From Actinomycetes bacterium (GTDB lineage Bacteria; Actinomycetota; Thermoleophilia; Solirubrobacterales; Solirubrobacteraceae), in NCBI GenBank assembly GCA_021784895.1, contig JAJYHG010000167.1, positions 1-55,993 of the forward strand: a DNA stretch of 55,993 bases, written 5' to 3'. The notes under the pieces were generated by a model. The model was not told the DNA's origin, made no database searches, and saw only the letters and a program-made list of their open reading frames with translations. The position numbers and the translations under genes were made by a program. Shown here in pieces: positions 705 to 51,254 of this stretch. The first letter of the stretch is position 1. Every line of letters begins with the position of its first letter.

Positions 705-734
705 CCGCGACCGGTCCCGCTGGACCGGTCGCGG
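705..734. terminator. Hairpin terminator between convergent genes
   Basis: A perfect 13-bp stem (705-717 with 722-734, core GACCGGTCC) closes a CGCT loop. It sits between two genes that converge and end at 693 and 746, the expected place for a bidirectional terminator. There is no T-tract, as is common in actinobacteria. Confidence 0.7.
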
Positions 735-11580: not shown

Positions 11581-12462
11581 CTACTTCAACAGCCGGCTCA
11601 AGCGACGGTCCTTGAGGACCCTGCCGTCGGTCTGGCAGGCCGGGCAGTAGCACATCACGTAGTCCTCGTAGAAGACCGCCTCGATCGTCGTGGCGCAGCG
11701 CGGGCAGGGCTCGCCGTTGTGGCGGTGGACGGTCAAGGGCAACGGCAGCTTGTCTGGAAGCGGAAGCGAGAGCGTCTGCCGGTAGTGGGCGATCGCGCCA
11801 CCGAGGCGGGCGTGGATCGCCCCGCTCAGCGCTTCGGCTTCCACCTGCGTGAGCTCGGAGGCCCGCTTGAACGGCGACAGCCGCGCGGTGTGGAGGATCT
11901 CATCCACCCAGGAACGCCCGATCCCGGCGATCACGTGCTGGTCGCGCAGAGCGGTGTACAGCGGGCGCGGCTCCCGTAGCCGCGCCCGCAACGCGTCCGC
12001 GTCAGGGGTGTCGGGCCAGGCCTCCGGGCCGAGCGAAGCGAGCGTCTCCTCGGTGCCCAGTTCGGTGGCGCGCAGAAGCTTCACCCAGGCCCGCTGCCTG
12101 GTGCCGAACTCGCGCAGGCGCAGCTCACGCCCGCCGCCCGCCAGGCGCAGCAGCACGCGTGAGCTGCGGTCCCTGGGCGTGGCGCGGCGGTCAAAGAGCT
12201 GCAGGCGGCCCGCGGACATGAGGTGAACCACGAGCGTCAGGTCAGCCGGCGGTCCAGCGGGACCGCCGGCGTGCAGATCGATCAGGAAGAGCTTGCCGCG
12301 CCGGCGGATGCCGGAGAGCCGCGCACCGGCCAGCGCCTCGAGCGGCGGCTCGAAGCTCCGCACAGCGTTGATTCCGGGGGCGCGCACCGAGTCGACCTCG
12401 GCGCCGGCCACCGCGGCGCCGATCAGCGCGGCTGTAATTTCCACCTCTGGCAGTTCGGGCAC
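11581..12462 (-). CDS. mutM: Formamidopyrimidine-DNA glycosylase
   Basis: A 293-residue Fpg/Nei enzyme that excises oxidised purines such as 8-oxoguanine and nicks the strand. The N-terminus MPELPEVEI gives the catalytic Pro2 and Glu3, and RRGK places Lys57. The helix-two-turn-helix region lies around GIGRSWVDEILHTARLSP. A C-terminal zinc finger is present (CPRC...CPAC, last 40 residues). Residues 64-73 (HAGGPAGPPA) form a short insertion where family members have a tight turn, and the DNA there is an 11-bp hairpin (12245-12270). Confidence 0.95.
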   Translation of the reverse strand: MPELPEVEITAALIGAAVAGAEVDSVRAPGINAVRSFEPPLEALAGARLSGIRRRGKLFLIDLHAGGPAGPPADLTLVVHLMSAGRLQLFDRRATPRDRSSRVLLRLAGGGRELRLREFGTRQRAWVKLLRATELGTEETLASLGPEAWPDTPDADALRARLREPRPLYTALRDQHVIAGIGRSWVDEILHTARLSPFKRASELTQVEAEALSGAIHARLGGAIAHYRQTLSLPLPDKLPLPLTVHRHNGEPCPRCATTIEAVFYEDYVMCYCPACQTDGRVLKDRRLSRLLK

Positions 12463-17953: not shown

Positions 17954-17990
17954 CTGGGTGTGACCGCTACCCCACAGCGGTCACACCCAG
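17954..17990. terminator. 15-bp perfect hairpin (first of a tandem pair)
   Basis: Left arm 17954-17968 (CTGGGTGTGACCGCT) pairs perfectly with 17976-17990 across a 7-base loop. It lies downstream of the secreted-protein gene ending at 18080 (minus strand) and so is placed to end that transcript. No T-tract follows. Confidence 0.6.
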
Positions 17991-18000
17991 GCCGCATCCA

Positions 18001-18036
18001 CGGTGTTGCTCGGCAGCAGACTGCCGAGCAACACCG
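18001..18036. terminator. 16-bp perfect hairpin (second of a tandem pair)
   Basis: Left arm 18001-18016 (CGGTGTTGCTCGGCAG) pairs perfectly with 18021-18036 across a CAGA loop. It stands only 10 bases from the previous hairpin and has an unrelated sequence. It is the first of the two to be reached by transcription from the secreted-protein gene. Confidence 0.6.
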
Positions 18037-23965: not shown

Positions 23966-24024
23966 GTCCCGCCGAGGGAGGGGTTTCCGCCCCTGGGGGG
24001 CGGAAACCCCTCCCTCGGCGGGAC
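23966..24024. repeat. 28-bp perfect hairpin, copy 1 of a dispersed palindrome
   Basis: Arms 23966-23993 and 23997-24024 are perfectly complementary around a TGG loop. The core GAGGGAGGGGTTTCCG recurs in the hairpin at 47508-47558. It lies between the SDR stop and the helicase start, both on the minus strand, so it could end transcription of the SDR gene. The stem is much longer than a normal terminator. Confidence 0.9.
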
Positions 24025-24048: not shown

Positions 24049-24939
24049 CTAACGGTCGCGAGTCGCGGTGCTGACCACGCTGCTCGCTGCGCCGCGGCGG
24101 ATCAGCGCCGGCGCCAGCAGCCGCAACAGCGGCGCGAGCCAGTAGTAGCGCGGCACGTAGCGCTCGGCCGCACCGCCCGGCCCCGCATCGATCACCGCTT
24201 CGGCCACGATCTGCGGCCCGGAGACCGCCCAGCGCGTCCAAGGCCGCTCGCGCAGCTCCTTCTGCGGGAAGCCCTCGGTCGCGATGAACCCAGGCAGCAC
24301 GTTGGCGACATGCACCCCGTACGGCGCCTGCTCGAGCGCCAGCGAGTCGCTCCACGCCGCCAGCGCCGCCTTGGCGGCGCTGTAGCCCCCGGTCCCGCGG
24401 CGCGAGATCCGCGCCGCCGTGCTCGTGACGTTGACGATCGCGACCGGGGCCTGGAGCGGCCGTCCGCCGAAGGTGGGCCGCTGGCCACCTTCGGCGCTGC
24501 CGGCGGTCAGCGGACCACCGGCGGCGGTGCGCCGCATGAGCGGCAAGAGCGCCTCCACCAGGCGCACCGGCGCGGAGAAGTTGACCTCCATGTGCTGGGC
24601 GACATTGGCGTAGCCGCCGTCGGCAAAGGGCGCCGCCCAGCGCGCGCCGGCGTTGTTGACGAGCAGATGCAGCACGCCATGTTCGCGCTCGGCGGCCGCC
24701 AGCACGCGCGCGGGCGCGTCCGCGTTGGTGAGGTCGGCAGCGACCCAGCTGACCGGGCAGCCGAGCTCTGCCGCGATCGCCGCCAGACGATCCTCGCGCC
24801 GGGCCACCAGGATCAGCGCCACACCGGGCTCGCGCGCCAGCCGGCGGGCGAGCGCCTCGCCGATCCCGCTCGAAGCGCCGGTGATCAGGGCCACGTAGGT
24901 CACGCGCGCGAGTCTATGCGCCCGCGGGGACTGCGCCAT
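24049..24939 (-). CDS. SDR family NAD(P)-dependent oxidoreductase
   Basis: A 296-residue short-chain dehydrogenase. It has the cofactor loop ITGASSGIGEAL, Asp in AADLTNAD, NNAG at residues 95-98, and the catalytic YxxxK in GGYSAAKAALAAW, with the Ser in VTSTAARIS. It is closest to classical SDRs of the DltE/YbbO-like type. Residues 139-165 (AAGGPLTAGSAEGGQRPTFG and on) form an insertion before the catalytic Ser strand; its DNA contains a 12-bp hairpin. The ATG at 24939 directly follows the stop of the upstream gene; a GTG at 24903 is the alternative and gives a more compact N-terminus. Confidence 0.85.
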   Translation of the reverse strand: MAQSPRAHRLARVTYVALITGASSGIGEALARRLAREPGVALILVARREDRLAAIAAELGCPVSWVAADLTNADAPARVLAAAEREHGVLHLLVNNAGARWAAPFADGGYANVAQHMEVNFSAPVRLVEALLPLMRRTAAGGPLTAGSAEGGQRPTFGGRPLQAPVAIVNVTSTAARISRRGTGGYSAAKAALAAWSDSLALEQAPYGVHVANVLPGFIATEGFPQKELRERPWTRWAVSGPQIVAEAVIDAGPGGAAERYVPRYYWLAPLLRLLAPALIRRGAASSVVSTATRDR

Positions 24940-32961: not shown

Positions 32962-32992
32962 GGGGCCGTTCGGCCAGCGGGCCGACGGCCCC
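32962..32992. terminator. Hairpin terminator between convergent genes
   Basis: GGGGCCGTTCGGCC pairs with GGCCGACGGCCCC, with a single bulge, around a short loop. It fills the 55-base gap between the ends of the TetR and isocitrate dehydrogenase genes. Confidence 0.65.
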
Positions 32993-45505: not shown

Positions 45506-46200
45506 CTAATCGCCGTCCCTGCTGTCGCTAGCGGCGCACACGACCGGCTCGGCTCCGCTTGTGATCACGAGGGTCGCGCCCCGCTTGGGCGCGACCCTCG
45601 GCACGGCGTCCCGGTCGACCCGCCGGAGCGTCACACCGAACACCTCCGCGAGCTCCACAGCGTTCAGGGACACGCGGTCTGCGTGTTGGCGCGCGTCGTC
45701 GAGCCGGCGGCCACTCAGCTCGACCGACACGCTGAGCCCCTGGGCGGTGGCGGCCTGTACGCACTCGAGCGCCGCGCCGTCAACTGTCGAGCCGATGTGC
45801 AGGTGGCTGGCCCCCGCGACGGCCGCGAGCGCGGCGGCCGACGCCCGCTCGGGACGCAGGGCTGGCTCACGGTGCCTGACGATGCGCTTGTCGGCGCCCG
45901 CGATCCAGCAGCAGGCTCTTGAGGTGCCCGCCTCGCGACAACCTCCACGCCCGCGCAGCCAACGCCTGAGCGACCGAGCCGGCACAGGCAGGCGCGGCCC
46001 TCTGTGTCGGCGCCGACGGCGCCGATCAGCTCCACCCGGTCCACCAGCGGCGCGAGCCAGGTGGCGGTGTTGGCGGCCGACCCTCCAAGCCCCGCGTGCA
46101 CGGCCTCCGCGTCGAGCTTCTCGTGGGGCCCGGGCGAGCGCTCGAGCAGCCAGATCTCGTCCCAGTTGATGCTCCCGCAGACCGCGACCGTGGCCACCAC
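45506..46200 (-). pseudogene. PfkB-family sugar kinase, frameshifted and 3'-truncated
   Basis: The N-terminal half reads TVAVCGSINWDEIWLLERSP, then HAGLGGSAANTATWLAPLVD and IGAVGADTEGRACL in one frame. Around 45930-45940 the homology moves to another frame, continuing REAGTSRACCWIAGADKRIV and ASHLHIGSTVDGAALEC to GATLVITSGAEPVVC. The C-terminal GAGD anion-hole/base motif of PfkB kinases is missing because the frame ends at 45506, against the nitroreductase gene. Two lesions make an active ribokinase-like enzyme unlikely, though a sequencing error could explain the frameshift alone. Confidence 0.8.
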
Positions 46201-46268: not shown

Positions 46269-47513
46269 ATGTCTGAGCGCAGCCGCGTAGCACCGTTCCG
46301 GCGCCTGGTCGGAGCGACGGGACTCTCGCGGATCGGCGACGCGATCCGGATCTTCGCGCTCACGCTGTGGGTCTACGCCCACACGGGCCACTCCGGGCCG
46401 GCGATCGCCGCGCTGACGCTCGCTCAGGCCCTTCCTGCGGTGGCGGTCGGCGTCGCCGCGGGCGCGCTGGTGGACCGGCACTCGCGCCGGCGGATCCTGA
46501 CACGGGCGGCGGGCGCCGAGTGCATGGTGACCTGCCTGCTGATCCTCGCCGTGGTGCTCGGCAACGTGGTGTTGGCCTTAGCGCTGGTGGCAGTAGGCAC
46601 GGCGCTGGACACGCTCGAGACGATCGTCGCCCGGACTTGGCTGCCGTCTCTGGTGGAGCCTGAGCGCCTGCAGTCAGCGAACGCGCAGTGGGAGGTCACA
46701 GAGCAGGTGGCATTCCTGTTCGGTCCGGCCGCAGCGGCGGTGCTCTACGCCACCGTGGGGGTGGCGCCCGCGCTGCTGATCGATGCCGCGAGCTTCATCG
46801 CGCTCGGGGCGATCGCCGCCACGATCCCGCTGCGCCTCGCGCGGGTCGCGGCGCGGCCGCCGGTCGCTGAGCCGGAGGCCGTTGACCGCGTCCCACGTAG
46901 TGGCGAGTCCGGTGGCACGTCCACAGCCGGCGTGATCGCCGGCCTGCGGTACATCGCCGCGCGACCTGCGCTGGGCCTGCTGATGGGCTCGGCGGGCCTT
47001 GCTGCGCTCGCGGCCGGGATCAACAACACGGTCATGATCTTCTTCGTCACCGAGGCGCTCAAACGCAGGCCTGAGCTGCTGGCAGCGCTGCCGACGGCCA
47101 ACGGGATCGCCCAGATCGCCGCCGGTGGTGCCGTCATCGCCCTGGCCAGGCGCCAGCCGCTGCACCTCACGCTGCGGGCCGGGGCCGCGCTGATGGCGAC
47201 CGGGGCGCTGATGATCGCCGTCGCCCCGTCGCTCACCATCCTGGTGCTCGGCGTGGTCATCACCTCGCTCGGCAACGCACCGCTGAACATCGGGCTGATG
47301 ACCTTCGAGCAGCAGACCGTCGAGGTCGGCATGCTCGGCCGGGTCAGAGGCGCACAGCAGTCGCTCGGCAACGGCAGCTTCGCTTTGGGCAGCATCCTCG
47401 TCGGCGCCCTGGTCGCCACCAGCGGCCCGCGCAGCCTGCTGTTCGTGTCCTTGGGCGCGAACTTGCTGATGTGGTTGTTGCTCGAGGCCGGCCCGGTGCG
47501 TTCGCTTCGGTGA
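46269..47513 (+). CDS. MFS transporter
   Basis: A 414-residue major facilitator with about 12 helices: FRRLVGATGLSRIGDAIRIF at the start, AAGALVDRHSRRRILTRAAG as motif A, and TWLPSLVEPERLQSANAQWE plus TVEVGMLGRVRGAQQSLGNG as DHA3-like segments. The substrate is unknown. ATG at 46269 is preferred to TTG at 46257. The stop codon lies inside the left arm of the dispersed palindrome at 47508-47558. The start lies 68 bases from the divergent pfkB remnant. Confidence 0.88.
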   Translation: MSERSRVAPFRRLVGATGLSRIGDAIRIFALTLWVYAHTGHSGPAIAALTLAQALPAVAVGVAAGALVDRHSRRRILTRAAGAECMVTCLLILAVVLGNVVLALALVAVGTALDTLETIVARTWLPSLVEPERLQSANAQWEVTEQVAFLFGPAAAAVLYATVGVAPALLIDAASFIALGAIAATIPLRLARVAARPPVAEPEAVDRVPRSGESGGTSTAGVIAGLRYIAARPALGLLMGSAGLAALAAGINNTVMIFFVTEALKRRPELLAALPTANGIAQIAAGGAVIALARRQPLHLTLRAGAALMATGALMIAVAPSLTILVLGVVITSLGNAPLNIGLMTFEQQTVEVGMLGRVRGAQQSLGNGSFALGSILVGALVATSGPRSLLFVSLGANLLMWLLLEAGPVRSLR

Positions 47514-47558
47514 GGGAGGGGTTTCCGTCCCCCAGGGACGGAAACCCCTCCCTCACCG
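47508..47558. repeat. 24-bp perfect hairpin, copy 2 of a dispersed palindrome
   Basis: Arms 47508-47531 and 47535-47558 pair perfectly around CCA, the complement of the TGG loop at 23966-24024. The shared core is GAGGGAGGGGTTTCCG. Next to it a stem pair differs (C-G in copy 1, T-A here) on both sides, so pairing is kept. It follows the MFS gene and covers its stop codon, so it may also act as a terminator. Confidence 0.9.
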
Positions 47559-47617: not shown

Positions 47618-48473
47618 GCAGCAAGCCACCGCCACAACCGGGCAGCTCTCTGACCTCTTCGCCCAAGCGCGCCTCACGCCGGTGCAGCGGCGGATCGCCG
47701 CGCACATAGTGCAGCGCGGCCCGCAGGCGGCCTTCTGCTCGAGCATCGAGCTGGCCGAGCAGGTGGGCGTCAGCCAGCCGTCGGTCACACGCCTGGCAAC
47801 GGCGCTCGGATACGCCGGCTTCAGCGACCTGCAGCGGGCGATCCGGGCGCTCGTCCTGGAGGAGCGGGCGCCCAGCAGGGCGCCCGCTGATGCAGAGAAC
47901 AAGCTGCAGCACGCCGTGGGCCACGCGATCGACGCACTGGCGGTCCTGCGCCGCCAGCTGGCCGACCCAGACGCACTCGAGCACGCCGCGCAGGCGCTCG
48001 CCCAGACACCGGTGCTGCCCGTCCACGGCAGCCGCAGCGCCGCGCCGCTGGCGGCGCAGTTTGAGTTCTTCGCCGCCAAGATCCACCCGGATGTGCGCCT
48101 GCTGACGGGCTCGCGCACCGAGCTGCTGGACGGGCTCGAGCGCGCCGCCGCGGGCGGCGCGACAGCGCTCCTGGCGCTCGCGCTGCCGCGCTACCCGCGC
48201 GAACTGGCCGAGCTGCTCGAAGCGGCGCGCGAGCGTGACATCGAGGTGGTGCTGCTCACCGACTCGCCGCTCTCCCCGCTCGCCGCCCTGGCGACCAGCA
48301 CGCTGTGGGCGCCGGTCAGCTCGGACCTGGTTTTCGACGCGGCCGTGGCGCCGCTGCAGCTGGTGACGGTCCTGCTCGAGGTGCTCGCCGACGCGCGGCC
48401 GGCGCGCACGCGCGAGCGGCTCGAGCGCTTCGACGCCTGGGCCGACGCCCACGACTACTTCACTCCGGCATGA
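47616..48473 (+). CDS. MurR/RpiR family regulator of the hut operon
   Basis: A 285-residue regulator. The N-terminal HTH_6 domain (residues 8-85) includes LTPVQRRIAAHIVQRGPQAA and AEQVGVSQPSVTRLATALGY. The SIS-like ligand domain follows, with VLPVHGSRSAAPLAAQFEFF and ALALPRYPRELAELLEAARE. SIS domains usually bind phosphosugars, yet the gene heads the histidine-degradation operon and overlaps the next gene by four bases, so control of hut is likely. A linker between the domains is encoded by an 11-bp hairpin (47863-47888). Confidence 0.87.
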   Translation: MQQATATTGQLSDLFAQARLTPVQRRIAAHIVQRGPQAAFCSSIELAEQVGVSQPSVTRLATALGYAGFSDLQRAIRALVLEERAPSRAPADAENKLQHAVGHAIDALAVLRRQLADPDALEHAAQALAQTPVLPVHGSRSAAPLAAQFEFFAAKIHPDVRLLTGSRTELLDGLERAAAGGATALLALALPRYPRELAELLEAARERDIEVVLLTDSPLSPLAALATSTLWAPVSSDLVFDAAVAPLQLVTVLLEVLADARPARTRERLERFDAWADAHDYFTPA

Positions 48474-49729: not shown

Positions 49730-51254
49730 TGAGACGGTCTTGATCGGGGGCGAGACGCTCACGCCCCAGGATGTCGCGCGCGTCGCGCGCGAGGATGCGC
49801 CGGTGGCGATCCACCCGCGGGCGCTCGAGCGGATCGATCGCGCCTTCACACAGATCCAGAGCCTGTCTGAGTCTGGCAACCCGGTCTACGGGGTCTCGAC
49901 CGGCTTCGGGGCGCTGTCGACGACCCGCATCCCGCGCGAGCAGTGGACGGCGCTTCAGCATTCGCTGGTGCGCTCGCACGCGGCCGGCATGGGCGCGCCG
50001 GTCGAGCGCGAGGTCGTGCGCGCGATGATGCTGCTGCGCGCCCGCACGCTCGCCCTCGGGCACTCGGGCGTGCACCGGCGCACGATCGAGCAGATCCTGG
50101 CGCTGCTCAACGCCGGCCTCACCCCGGTGGTCCCCGAGCACGGCTCGCTGGGCGCGAGCGGCGATCTGGCGCCGCTGGCTCACTTCTCCCTGGCCTTGCT
50201 TGGCCAGGGAGAAGTAACGGACGCTGGCGGTCGTACGCTGCCCGCGGCACAGGCGCTGGCGGCGGCCGGGCTCGAGCCGCTCGCACTCGGGCCGAAGGAG
50301 GGCCTATCCCTGATCAACGGCACCGACGGGATGCTCGGGATGCTGGCACTGGCGCTGCTCGATCTGGAGCTGTTGTGCCGGACCGCGGACGTGGCGGCAG
50401 CGATGAGCGTCGAGGCGCTGCTCGGCACCGACACAGCCTTTGACCCCGCCGTGCAGGCACTGCGCCCACACGCCGGGCAGGCGACGAGCGCCGCCAATCT
50501 CACGCGGCTGATGGCGGGCTCCGCGATCGTCGCCTCCCACCGCGAAAACGACGACCGTGTCCAGGACGCCTACTCGATGCGCTGCGCGCCCCAGGTGGTG
50601 GGGGCGGCGCGTGACGTGCTCGCCTACGCCCGCGGCGTTGCCGAGATAGAGCTCGCCTCGGCGGTGGATAACCCGAGCGTGCTCGACGACGGGCGGCTGG
50701 TATCGAACGGCAACTTCCACGGCATCCCGCTCGGCTTCGCGGCCGACTTCCTGGCGATCGCCGCGGCCGAGATCGGCGCGATCTCCGAGCGCCGCGTCGA
50801 CCGGCTGCTCGACGTGACCCGCTCGATGGGCCTGCCGGCCTTCCTCGCTCAGAGTCCGGGCCTGGACTCCGGGCTGATGATCGCCCAGTACACCGCGGCG
50901 GCGCTGGTGGCTGAGAACCGGCGGCTGGCGGCGCCCGCGAGCGTCGACTCGATCCCCACCTCCGGGATGCAGGAGGACCACGTCTCGATGGGCTGGAGCG
51001 CGGCGCGCAAGCTGCGCCGCAGCCTGCACAACCTGACCCGCATCCTGGCTGTAGAGCTGCTCTGCTCAGCGCGGGCGCTGGAGCTGCGGGCGCCGCTTGC
51101 GAGCGCCCCGGCGACCGCGGCGGTGACGGCGCTGATCGACCCGCGGCCGGGGCCGGACCGCAGCCCCGCGCCGGAGCTCGAGCGGGTCGCGGGACTGATT
51201 GAAAGCGGCGCGGCGCTGGCGGCGGCAGAGCAGGTGATCGGGGGGCTCGAGTGA
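49722..51254 (+). CDS. hutH: Histidine ammonia-lyase
   Basis: A 510-residue lyase that removes ammonia from L-histidine to give urocanate. The MIO cofactor forms from Ala-Ser-Gly in HGSLGASGDLAPLAHFSLAL. GNPVYGVSTGFGALSTTRI, NGTDGMLGMLALALLDLELL, QDAYSMRCAPQVVGAARDVL and DNPSVLDDGRLVSNGNFHG are conserved. A 14-bp perfect hairpin (50182-50215) lies in the coding sequence just after the MIO site without lengthening the protein. ATG at 49722; the stop overlaps the hutI GTG. Confidence 0.97.
   Translation: MADETVLIGGETLTPQDVARVAREDAPVAIHPRALERIDRAFTQIQSLSESGNPVYGVSTGFGALSTTRIPREQWTALQHSLVRSHAAGMGAPVEREVVRAMMLLRARTLALGHSGVHRRTIEQILALLNAGLTPVVPEHGSLGASGDLAPLAHFSLALLGQGEVTDAGGRTLPAAQALAAAGLEPLALGPKEGLSLINGTDGMLGMLALALLDLELLCRTADVAAAMSVEALLGTDTAFDPAVQALRPHAGQATSAANLTRLMAGSAIVASHRENDDRVQDAYSMRCAPQVVGAARDVLAYARGVAEIELASAVDNPSVLDDGRLVSNGNFHGIPLGFAADFLAIAAAEIGAISERRVDRLLDVTRSMGLPAFLAQSPGLDSGLMIAQYTAAALVAENRRLAAPASVDSIPTSGMQEDHVSMGWSAARKLRRSLHNLTRILAVELLCSARALELRAPLASAPATAAVTALIDPRPGPDRSPAPELERVAGLIESGAALAAAEQVIGGLE

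Follow-up and report, generated by a model that had tools for sequence, protein, structure and literature searches.

A short-chain dehydrogenase (SDR) gene in a 55,993-nucleotide stretch of a Solirubrobacterales genome (contig JAJYHG010000167.1, here called the window) carries an in-frame insert containing two short hairpins side by side, both members of a clade-specific hairpin family. The family unit is 24-34 nt long and consists of the loop C(CGCT)G on one strand, C(AGCG)G on the other, between arms of 9-15 bp in which an inner GGCC is conserved and the outer sequence is free yet perfectly paired. Coordinates of the features discussed are collected in Table 1. The host genome is a metagenome-assembled genome (MAG), as are its named GTDB relatives, which are likewise Solirubrobacterales.

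The SDR frame matches Pfam adh_short (E 1.7e-40), its AlphaFold2 model is a confident Rossmann fold (mean pLDDT 85.9), and the catalytic residues Ser162, Tyr175, and Lys179 are intact and conserved in the ortholog alignment. A sequence-only reading of the window had proposed an in-frame insertion ahead of the catalytic-Ser strand, and the comparison with other SDRs bears this out. About 25 residues in the loop joining helix 94-129 to strand 155-160 correspond to nothing in solved SDRs (3m1a_A goes directly from its residue 131 to 132), are absent from most orthologs in the 61 genomes compared, and are modeled with a pLDDT of about 55 over residues 131-140. In the window's own genus the length of the segment varies; the other genera aligned have a short form (..APSAIVNV). 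Because of this length variation, and because hairpin relatives occur throughout the genome, the insert is not a subfamily-wide feature devoid of DNA-level repeats. Neither direct repeats nor the target duplication envisaged in the sequence-only reading were found within positions 24400-24600.

The 12-bp perfect stem that had been reported in the insert is an exact inverted repeat, with CGCCGAAGGTGG at 24465-24476 and its complement CCACCTTCGGCG at 24485-24496. This hairpin (B) is the family core GGTGGCC(AGCG)GGCCACC with one C.C mismatch, lies one mismatch from an 18-mer that has 11 exact copies in the genome and none in a reversed control, and matches the family covariance model with an E of 6.3e-4. 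A second hairpin (A), overlooked in the first reading, lies 2 nt from B in the same insert (family-model E 2.8e-4), and the insert encodes both peptide kinds found in the family, GGPLT and GGQRP. Both hairpins are common only to the sister species G013 (71% identical), in which A is a perfect 13-bp stem, GTCGCCGGCGGTC(CGCT)GACCGCCGGCGAC (L033:1892-1919; 40.3 bits, E 1.6e-7); in the G006 ortholog only the AGCG hairpin is left, as a decayed trace. Because B is common to G006 and G013 and A to G013 only, a comparison of these sequences suggests that B is probably older and that A was added beside it later. It is very unlikely that the SDR hairpin is simply a palindrome that arose by chance in a loop that is GC-rich and free to evolve. 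The loop is indeed length-variable genus-wide, also in members without hairpins, and hairpin B scores just 26 bits, but two family-type hairpins adjoin here, one of them a perfect 13-bp stem in the sister species, folding of the 81-nt stretch beats 200 of 200 dinucleotide shuffles (z about -3.6, as RNA and as DNA), and the family is enriched 150-fold.

The family came to light through a search of the insert against its own genome. No fixed sequence recurred, which excluded a fixed mobile sequence: only short core matches were returned, the best of them being other perfect hairpins with the core GGTGGCC-AGCG-GGCCACC (11 exact genome copies, none in the reversed control) and not copies of the insert. 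These matches led to the loop family, in that the loop with perfect pairing does recur. Stretches of three genomes, 1.775 Mb in all, contained 124 distinct family hairpins with at least nine perfect pairs, a density of about 70 per Mb or roughly 200 per genome, compared to 20 whose first nine pairs included one mismatch. When stems were counted by loop hexamer, the 3,805 occurrences of CAGCGG/CCGCTG included 128 perfect 9-bp stems and 20 with one mismatch, whereas the 492,177 occurrences of all other closing-pair plus tetraloop hexamers included 107 and 758, respectively, which is the chance ratio; the family loop is thus over-represented about 150-fold relative to other loops. Coding and intergenic copies bear the same pattern, with G at -4, -7, and -10 from the loop plus the adjoining GGCC (GnnGnnGGCC), which rules out codon bias alone as its source. 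No fixed flank was found 5' or 3' of the stems, and no match in the window exceeded an Rfam gathering score. Statistics from the covariance model are circular because the members were picked for perfect stems; the perfect to one-mismatch ratio, the single-loop enrichment, and retention between orthologs are unbiased. Genome samples were partial, and genes were called with a simple codon-score caller written for this analysis.

Most of the hairpins (88 of 124, or 71%, in a genome that is 86% coding) are inside genes, at uniform relative positions. Where CGCT is on the sense strand, 49 of 60 coding hairpins are read in the frame GGC CCG CTG GCC, giving Gly-Pro-Leu-Ala, and AGCG-sense hairpins in the matching frame give Gly-Gln-Arg-Ala. 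Intergenic copies are nearest a gene 3' end in 27 of 36 cases, most of them 5-30 nt beyond the stop codon. This clustering at 3' ends would suit intrinsic transcription terminators, some of them in genes by accident, but the uniformly placed majority within genes and the lack of a conserved T-rich flank after the stems make that explanation exceedingly improbable.

The same placement bears on whether the hairpins are functional structures under selection at the level of host mRNA or DNA. An RNA-binding protein or a nuclease specific for the loop might, for instance, set how stable an mRNA is or how it is processed, and ordinary compensatory mutation would keep the stems paired. Such selection would account for the single-loop specificity, the position of intergenic copies shortly after stop codons, the conservation of intergenic hairpin locations although their flanks diverge, and an excess of sense-strand G.U over A.C pairs of about 8 to 1 or 2 in one-mismatch coding stems. 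The 3'-end clustering and the G.U excess hint at an RNA-level role, but the G.U excess is confounded, and strand-biased C-to-T mutation on the non-template strand could produce it by itself. Moreover, the two strands give different RNA loops (CGCU and AGCG) that are used equally after stop codons (13 vs 14), positions within genes are uniform, and slow compensation should leave more one-mismatch intermediates than were seen. We regard functional selection with ordinary compensation as unlikely, although not remotely so.

Comparison of orthologs shows how the hairpins change. In-frame presence or absence was observed in MutM (in the window; the G008 and G016 orthologs are without about nine residues at this site), an SNF2 helicase, L085, L103, and a GMC oxidoreductase. 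Of the coding cases compared, about half, including TruA, NadE, phosphoketolase, and RecQ, formed in place with protein length unchanged. When G000 coding hairpins were compared with G012 orthologs (mean protein identity 80%), 11 of 19 kept a perfect stem of at least 9 bp at the same site; if stems changed as fast as their flanks (19% per site), about 2% would be expected to survive. Retained stems changed in pairs, as in TruA (TGATGCTGCCC/GGGCAGCATCA vs TGAGGCTGCCC/GGGCAGCCTCA, a T-A to G-C replacement) and MutM (GCCGGCGGTCC vs GCCTCCGGTCC, GCCGGC.. vs GCCTCC..), with further paired changes in L085, L092, SNF2, and LeuRS. At two sites the loop was inverted with arm orientation unchanged: in the MutM gene of G013 and, between genes, in L085 vs L186/L245. 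Shared stems changed at 4.7% of sites vs 18.9% in flanks (6.1% vs 29.1% at third codon positions), but the 4.7% figure overstates constraint because it covers only sites where both stems are perfect; by arithmetic from the same comparison, stem change is about 12% once sites with the hairpin lost in one species are included. A loop variant was also seen at an orthologous coding hairpin (L192:15675-16190 vs L089:7609-8163), which reads TGCCGGTGGCC AAGCGG GGCCACCGGCA in G000 with pairing intact and has the standard loop in G012.

The family is sharply bounded. Within the genus, the covariance model R1 gave at least 60-125 matches in eight genomes and 0-20 in the other twenty; up to 150 candidates were scored per genome, making the high counts lower bounds. 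The eight rich genomes, each a different species, form one clade with 100/99 support in a LeuRS tree. All eight carry the TruA hairpin (with loop AGCT in G008), and it is in no outgroup with an alignable site, where the site has the same length. Across the wider class (149 genomes) and the phylum (296 genomes), matches were single or double, low-scoring, and at chance level. Viral contigs were not enriched, with 18 exact core matches vs 19 in the reversed control, and a phage origin was rejected on this basis. Four genomes outside the main clade (G016, G010, G005, and G027) have 11-20 model matches, which could mean that the family occurs there at a low level, that it originated earlier, or that it was transferred. 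A polar chromosome motif resembling Chi or KOPS was also rejected, in view of random hairpin spacing and the absence of strand skew along G012 among the matches listed; we take the AGCGG motif to resemble the Bacillus Chi site.

In our view, the best explanation of these sequence patterns, and one with about an even chance of being correct, is that template switching makes or repairs the hairpins and that a loop-specific force retains them. Template switching between inverted-repeat arms homogenizes the arms, inverts spacers, and creates or maintains hairpins, which it can form in one step (PMC8604942, PMC8794818). Each family hairpin would be made or extended during DNA replication when, at a short inverted repeat, the polymerase switches briefly to the opposite arm as template, creating or repairing a perfect second arm; the same switch would sometimes add in-frame residues and sometimes flip the loop (CGCT to AGCG). 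Selection on a loop-recognized structure, or an enzyme, would then retain hairpins with CGCT/AGCG loops and not those with other loops, and copies would persist only at sites where the protein can accommodate them, the SDR surface loop being one. Template switching is suggested by its reported marks, namely pairing that is either perfect or absent, paired multi-base changes, and inversion of the loop; paired changes and two loop flips were seen here between species. The described events involve arm homogenization, spacer inversion, and multi-base paired changes in coding DNA, and the changes in the family may be of this kind, but the described events constitute a mutation process rather than a sequence family and are not known to favor one loop (PMC8604942, PMC8794818). 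A loop-specific factor is invoked because template switching leaves the single loop unexplained.

Several results weigh against this explanation. Template switching alone ought to act on any loop, and single-loop specificity would need the second factor. Where a hairpin is lost in one species, one-sided changes are common (33 vs 9 double), and the paired changes at shared sites were counted only where both stems are perfect. In the SDR gene itself, hairpin B has one mismatch and its outer stem is degenerate in G013; for these reasons its membership in the family is less certain than that of A.

A stronger version, which we hold only tentatively and consider somewhat less probable, is a loop-coded system. 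A clade-specific factor would recognize C(CGCT)G hairpins, as DNA or RNA, at ~200 sites per genome, drive their creation or upkeep, write peptides of the Gly-Pro-Leu-Ala type in-frame, and mark gene ends. Less probable again, and in our estimation rather doubtful, is a small non-autonomous mobile palindrome, similar to Rickettsia palindromic elements (RPEs) or miniature inverted-repeat transposable elements, that is copied by a putative transposase and inserts in either orientation, with arm differences reflecting age and conversion keeping the pairing. Clean in-frame presence or absence between orthologs, the weak GnnGnnGGCC pattern common to intergenic and coding copies, orientation that is random after stop codons and along the chromosome, and random spacing (CV 1.06) are all consistent with mobility. 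However, the arms vary by site without a master sequence, protein length is the same with and without the hairpin in about half of the coding cases compared, and the SDR site has no target duplication. Moreover, Y1 transposase domains, IS200-type by inspection, are present in only four of the eight rich genomes, the innermost four (G000, G012, G024, and G020; drafts incomplete), and no family hairpins flank the four Y1 loci examined, observations that also led us to disfavor a RAYT/REP origin.

The sequence-only reading had likened the insert to the RPEs, and the resemblance holds in part. RPEs are palindromic DNA placed in-frame in many protein genes, with products that are probably functional, and also occur outside genes (PMC3733652, PMC6649704). 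The family here likewise comprises in-frame hairpin insertions in protein genes genome-wide, with residues present or absent between orthologs and the frame kept. It is not, however, a Rickettsia palindromic element. RPEs are described as specific insertion elements whose repeat identity declines over time (PMC6649704), whereas the present unit is 24-34 nt with no shared element sequence beyond the loop and inner GGCC. Pairing is kept through paired changes (124 perfect vs 20 one-mismatch stems) instead of decaying with age, about half of the coding cases compared lack a length change, and the host belongs to Solirubrobacterales, with matches at chance level outside one clade.

The nearest known system, closer than RPEs, is the set of coding palindromes in Nematomorpha mitochondria. 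These are perfect inverted repeats in functional genes, perfect or absent, with gains and losses between species, and arm conversion was inferred from the same template-switch argument (PMC6649704). The family shares the perfect arms, the excess of perfect over imperfect stems, and the coding of both arms. It differs in that nematomorph arms reach 142 bp, with no conserved loop or spacer described in the sections consulted (PMC6649704), whereas the arms here are 9-15 bp around one loop, in a bacterial chromosome, and also lie after genes. The family is not a REP. REPs and the GTAG- and CGTC-tagged repeats are also 20-40-nt hairpins with at least 100 copies per genome, many just after genes, but they rarely extend into coding sequence and have a common consensus with a terminal tag (PMC3733652, PMC12306157); the present hairpins are mostly coding, with free arms and no terminal GTAG or CGTC tag, and no neighboring RAYT gene was found in the incomplete drafts. 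No earlier description was found in the literature on Thermoleophilia or on loop-defined coding palindromes, and the family is previously unlisted.

Beyond the SDR gene, the window contains further family members (Table 1). The loop at 47863-47888 is altered, and the G024 ortholog of this site has the standard CGCT/AGCG loop on a 10-bp stem. Two other hairpins have loops near the standard one but not identical to it, the second of them inside a gene. A second hairpin family, with long perfect arms sharing GAGGGAGGGGTTTCCG, stands directly after gene ends, one copy just downstream of the SDR gene. Two strong perfect intergenic hairpins lie 10 nt apart.

Table 1. Positions of the SDR gene, its insert, and hairpins in the window.
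Feature	Positions	Strand	Details
SDR gene hosting the insert	24049..24906 (about)	-	Open reading frame; start codon not fixed
In-frame insert, ~25 residues (query 131-155)	~24442..24516	-	Solved-SDR alignment, orthologs, AlphaFold2 model
Hairpin B	24465..24496	-	CGCCGAAGGTGG-CC(AGCG)GC-CCACCTTCGGCG on coding strand; 12-bp perfect arms; encodes EGGQRPTF
Hairpin A	24499..24522	-	GCCGGTGGTC(CGCT)GACCGCCGGC; 10 bp including one G.U; encodes AGGPLTAG
Family hairpin in MutM/Fpg gene	12245..12270	-	GCCGGCGGTCC(CGCT)GGACCGCCGGC; family model 38.2 bits
Family hairpin between convergent genes	705..734	+	13-bp arms; 11 nt from both stop codons; family model
Probable member with one-base bulge	32963..32991	-	GGGCCGUCGGCC(CGCU)GGCCGAaCGGCCC; family model 31.4 bits
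Member with loop changed to TGCT	47863..47888	-	Family model, ortholog comparison
Second-family hairpin	23966-24024		28-bp perfect arms
Second-family hairpin	47508-47558		24-bp perfect arms
Near-standard-loop hairpin	45568-45600		14-bp arms; loop CGCTT
Near-standard-loop hairpin	50182-50215		14-bp arms; loop TTGCTT
Strong perfect hairpin	17954-17990		15 bp
Strong perfect hairpin	18001-18036		16 bp

To our knowledge, perfect hairpins are costly in protein genes and have seldom been reported. A compact bacterial system with ~70 copies per Mb, one loop, and varying perfect arms makes it testable whether coding palindromes are kept by structural selection or by arm conversion, and the sharp boundary within one genus, with eight species rich and other lineages nearly empty, permits a comparative search for the responsible gene. 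The family is also a route for the repeated in-frame writing of short peptides into proteins. If the loop-coded system exists, these hairpins would be maintained coding palindromes of a class set apart by its loop and not by its sequence.
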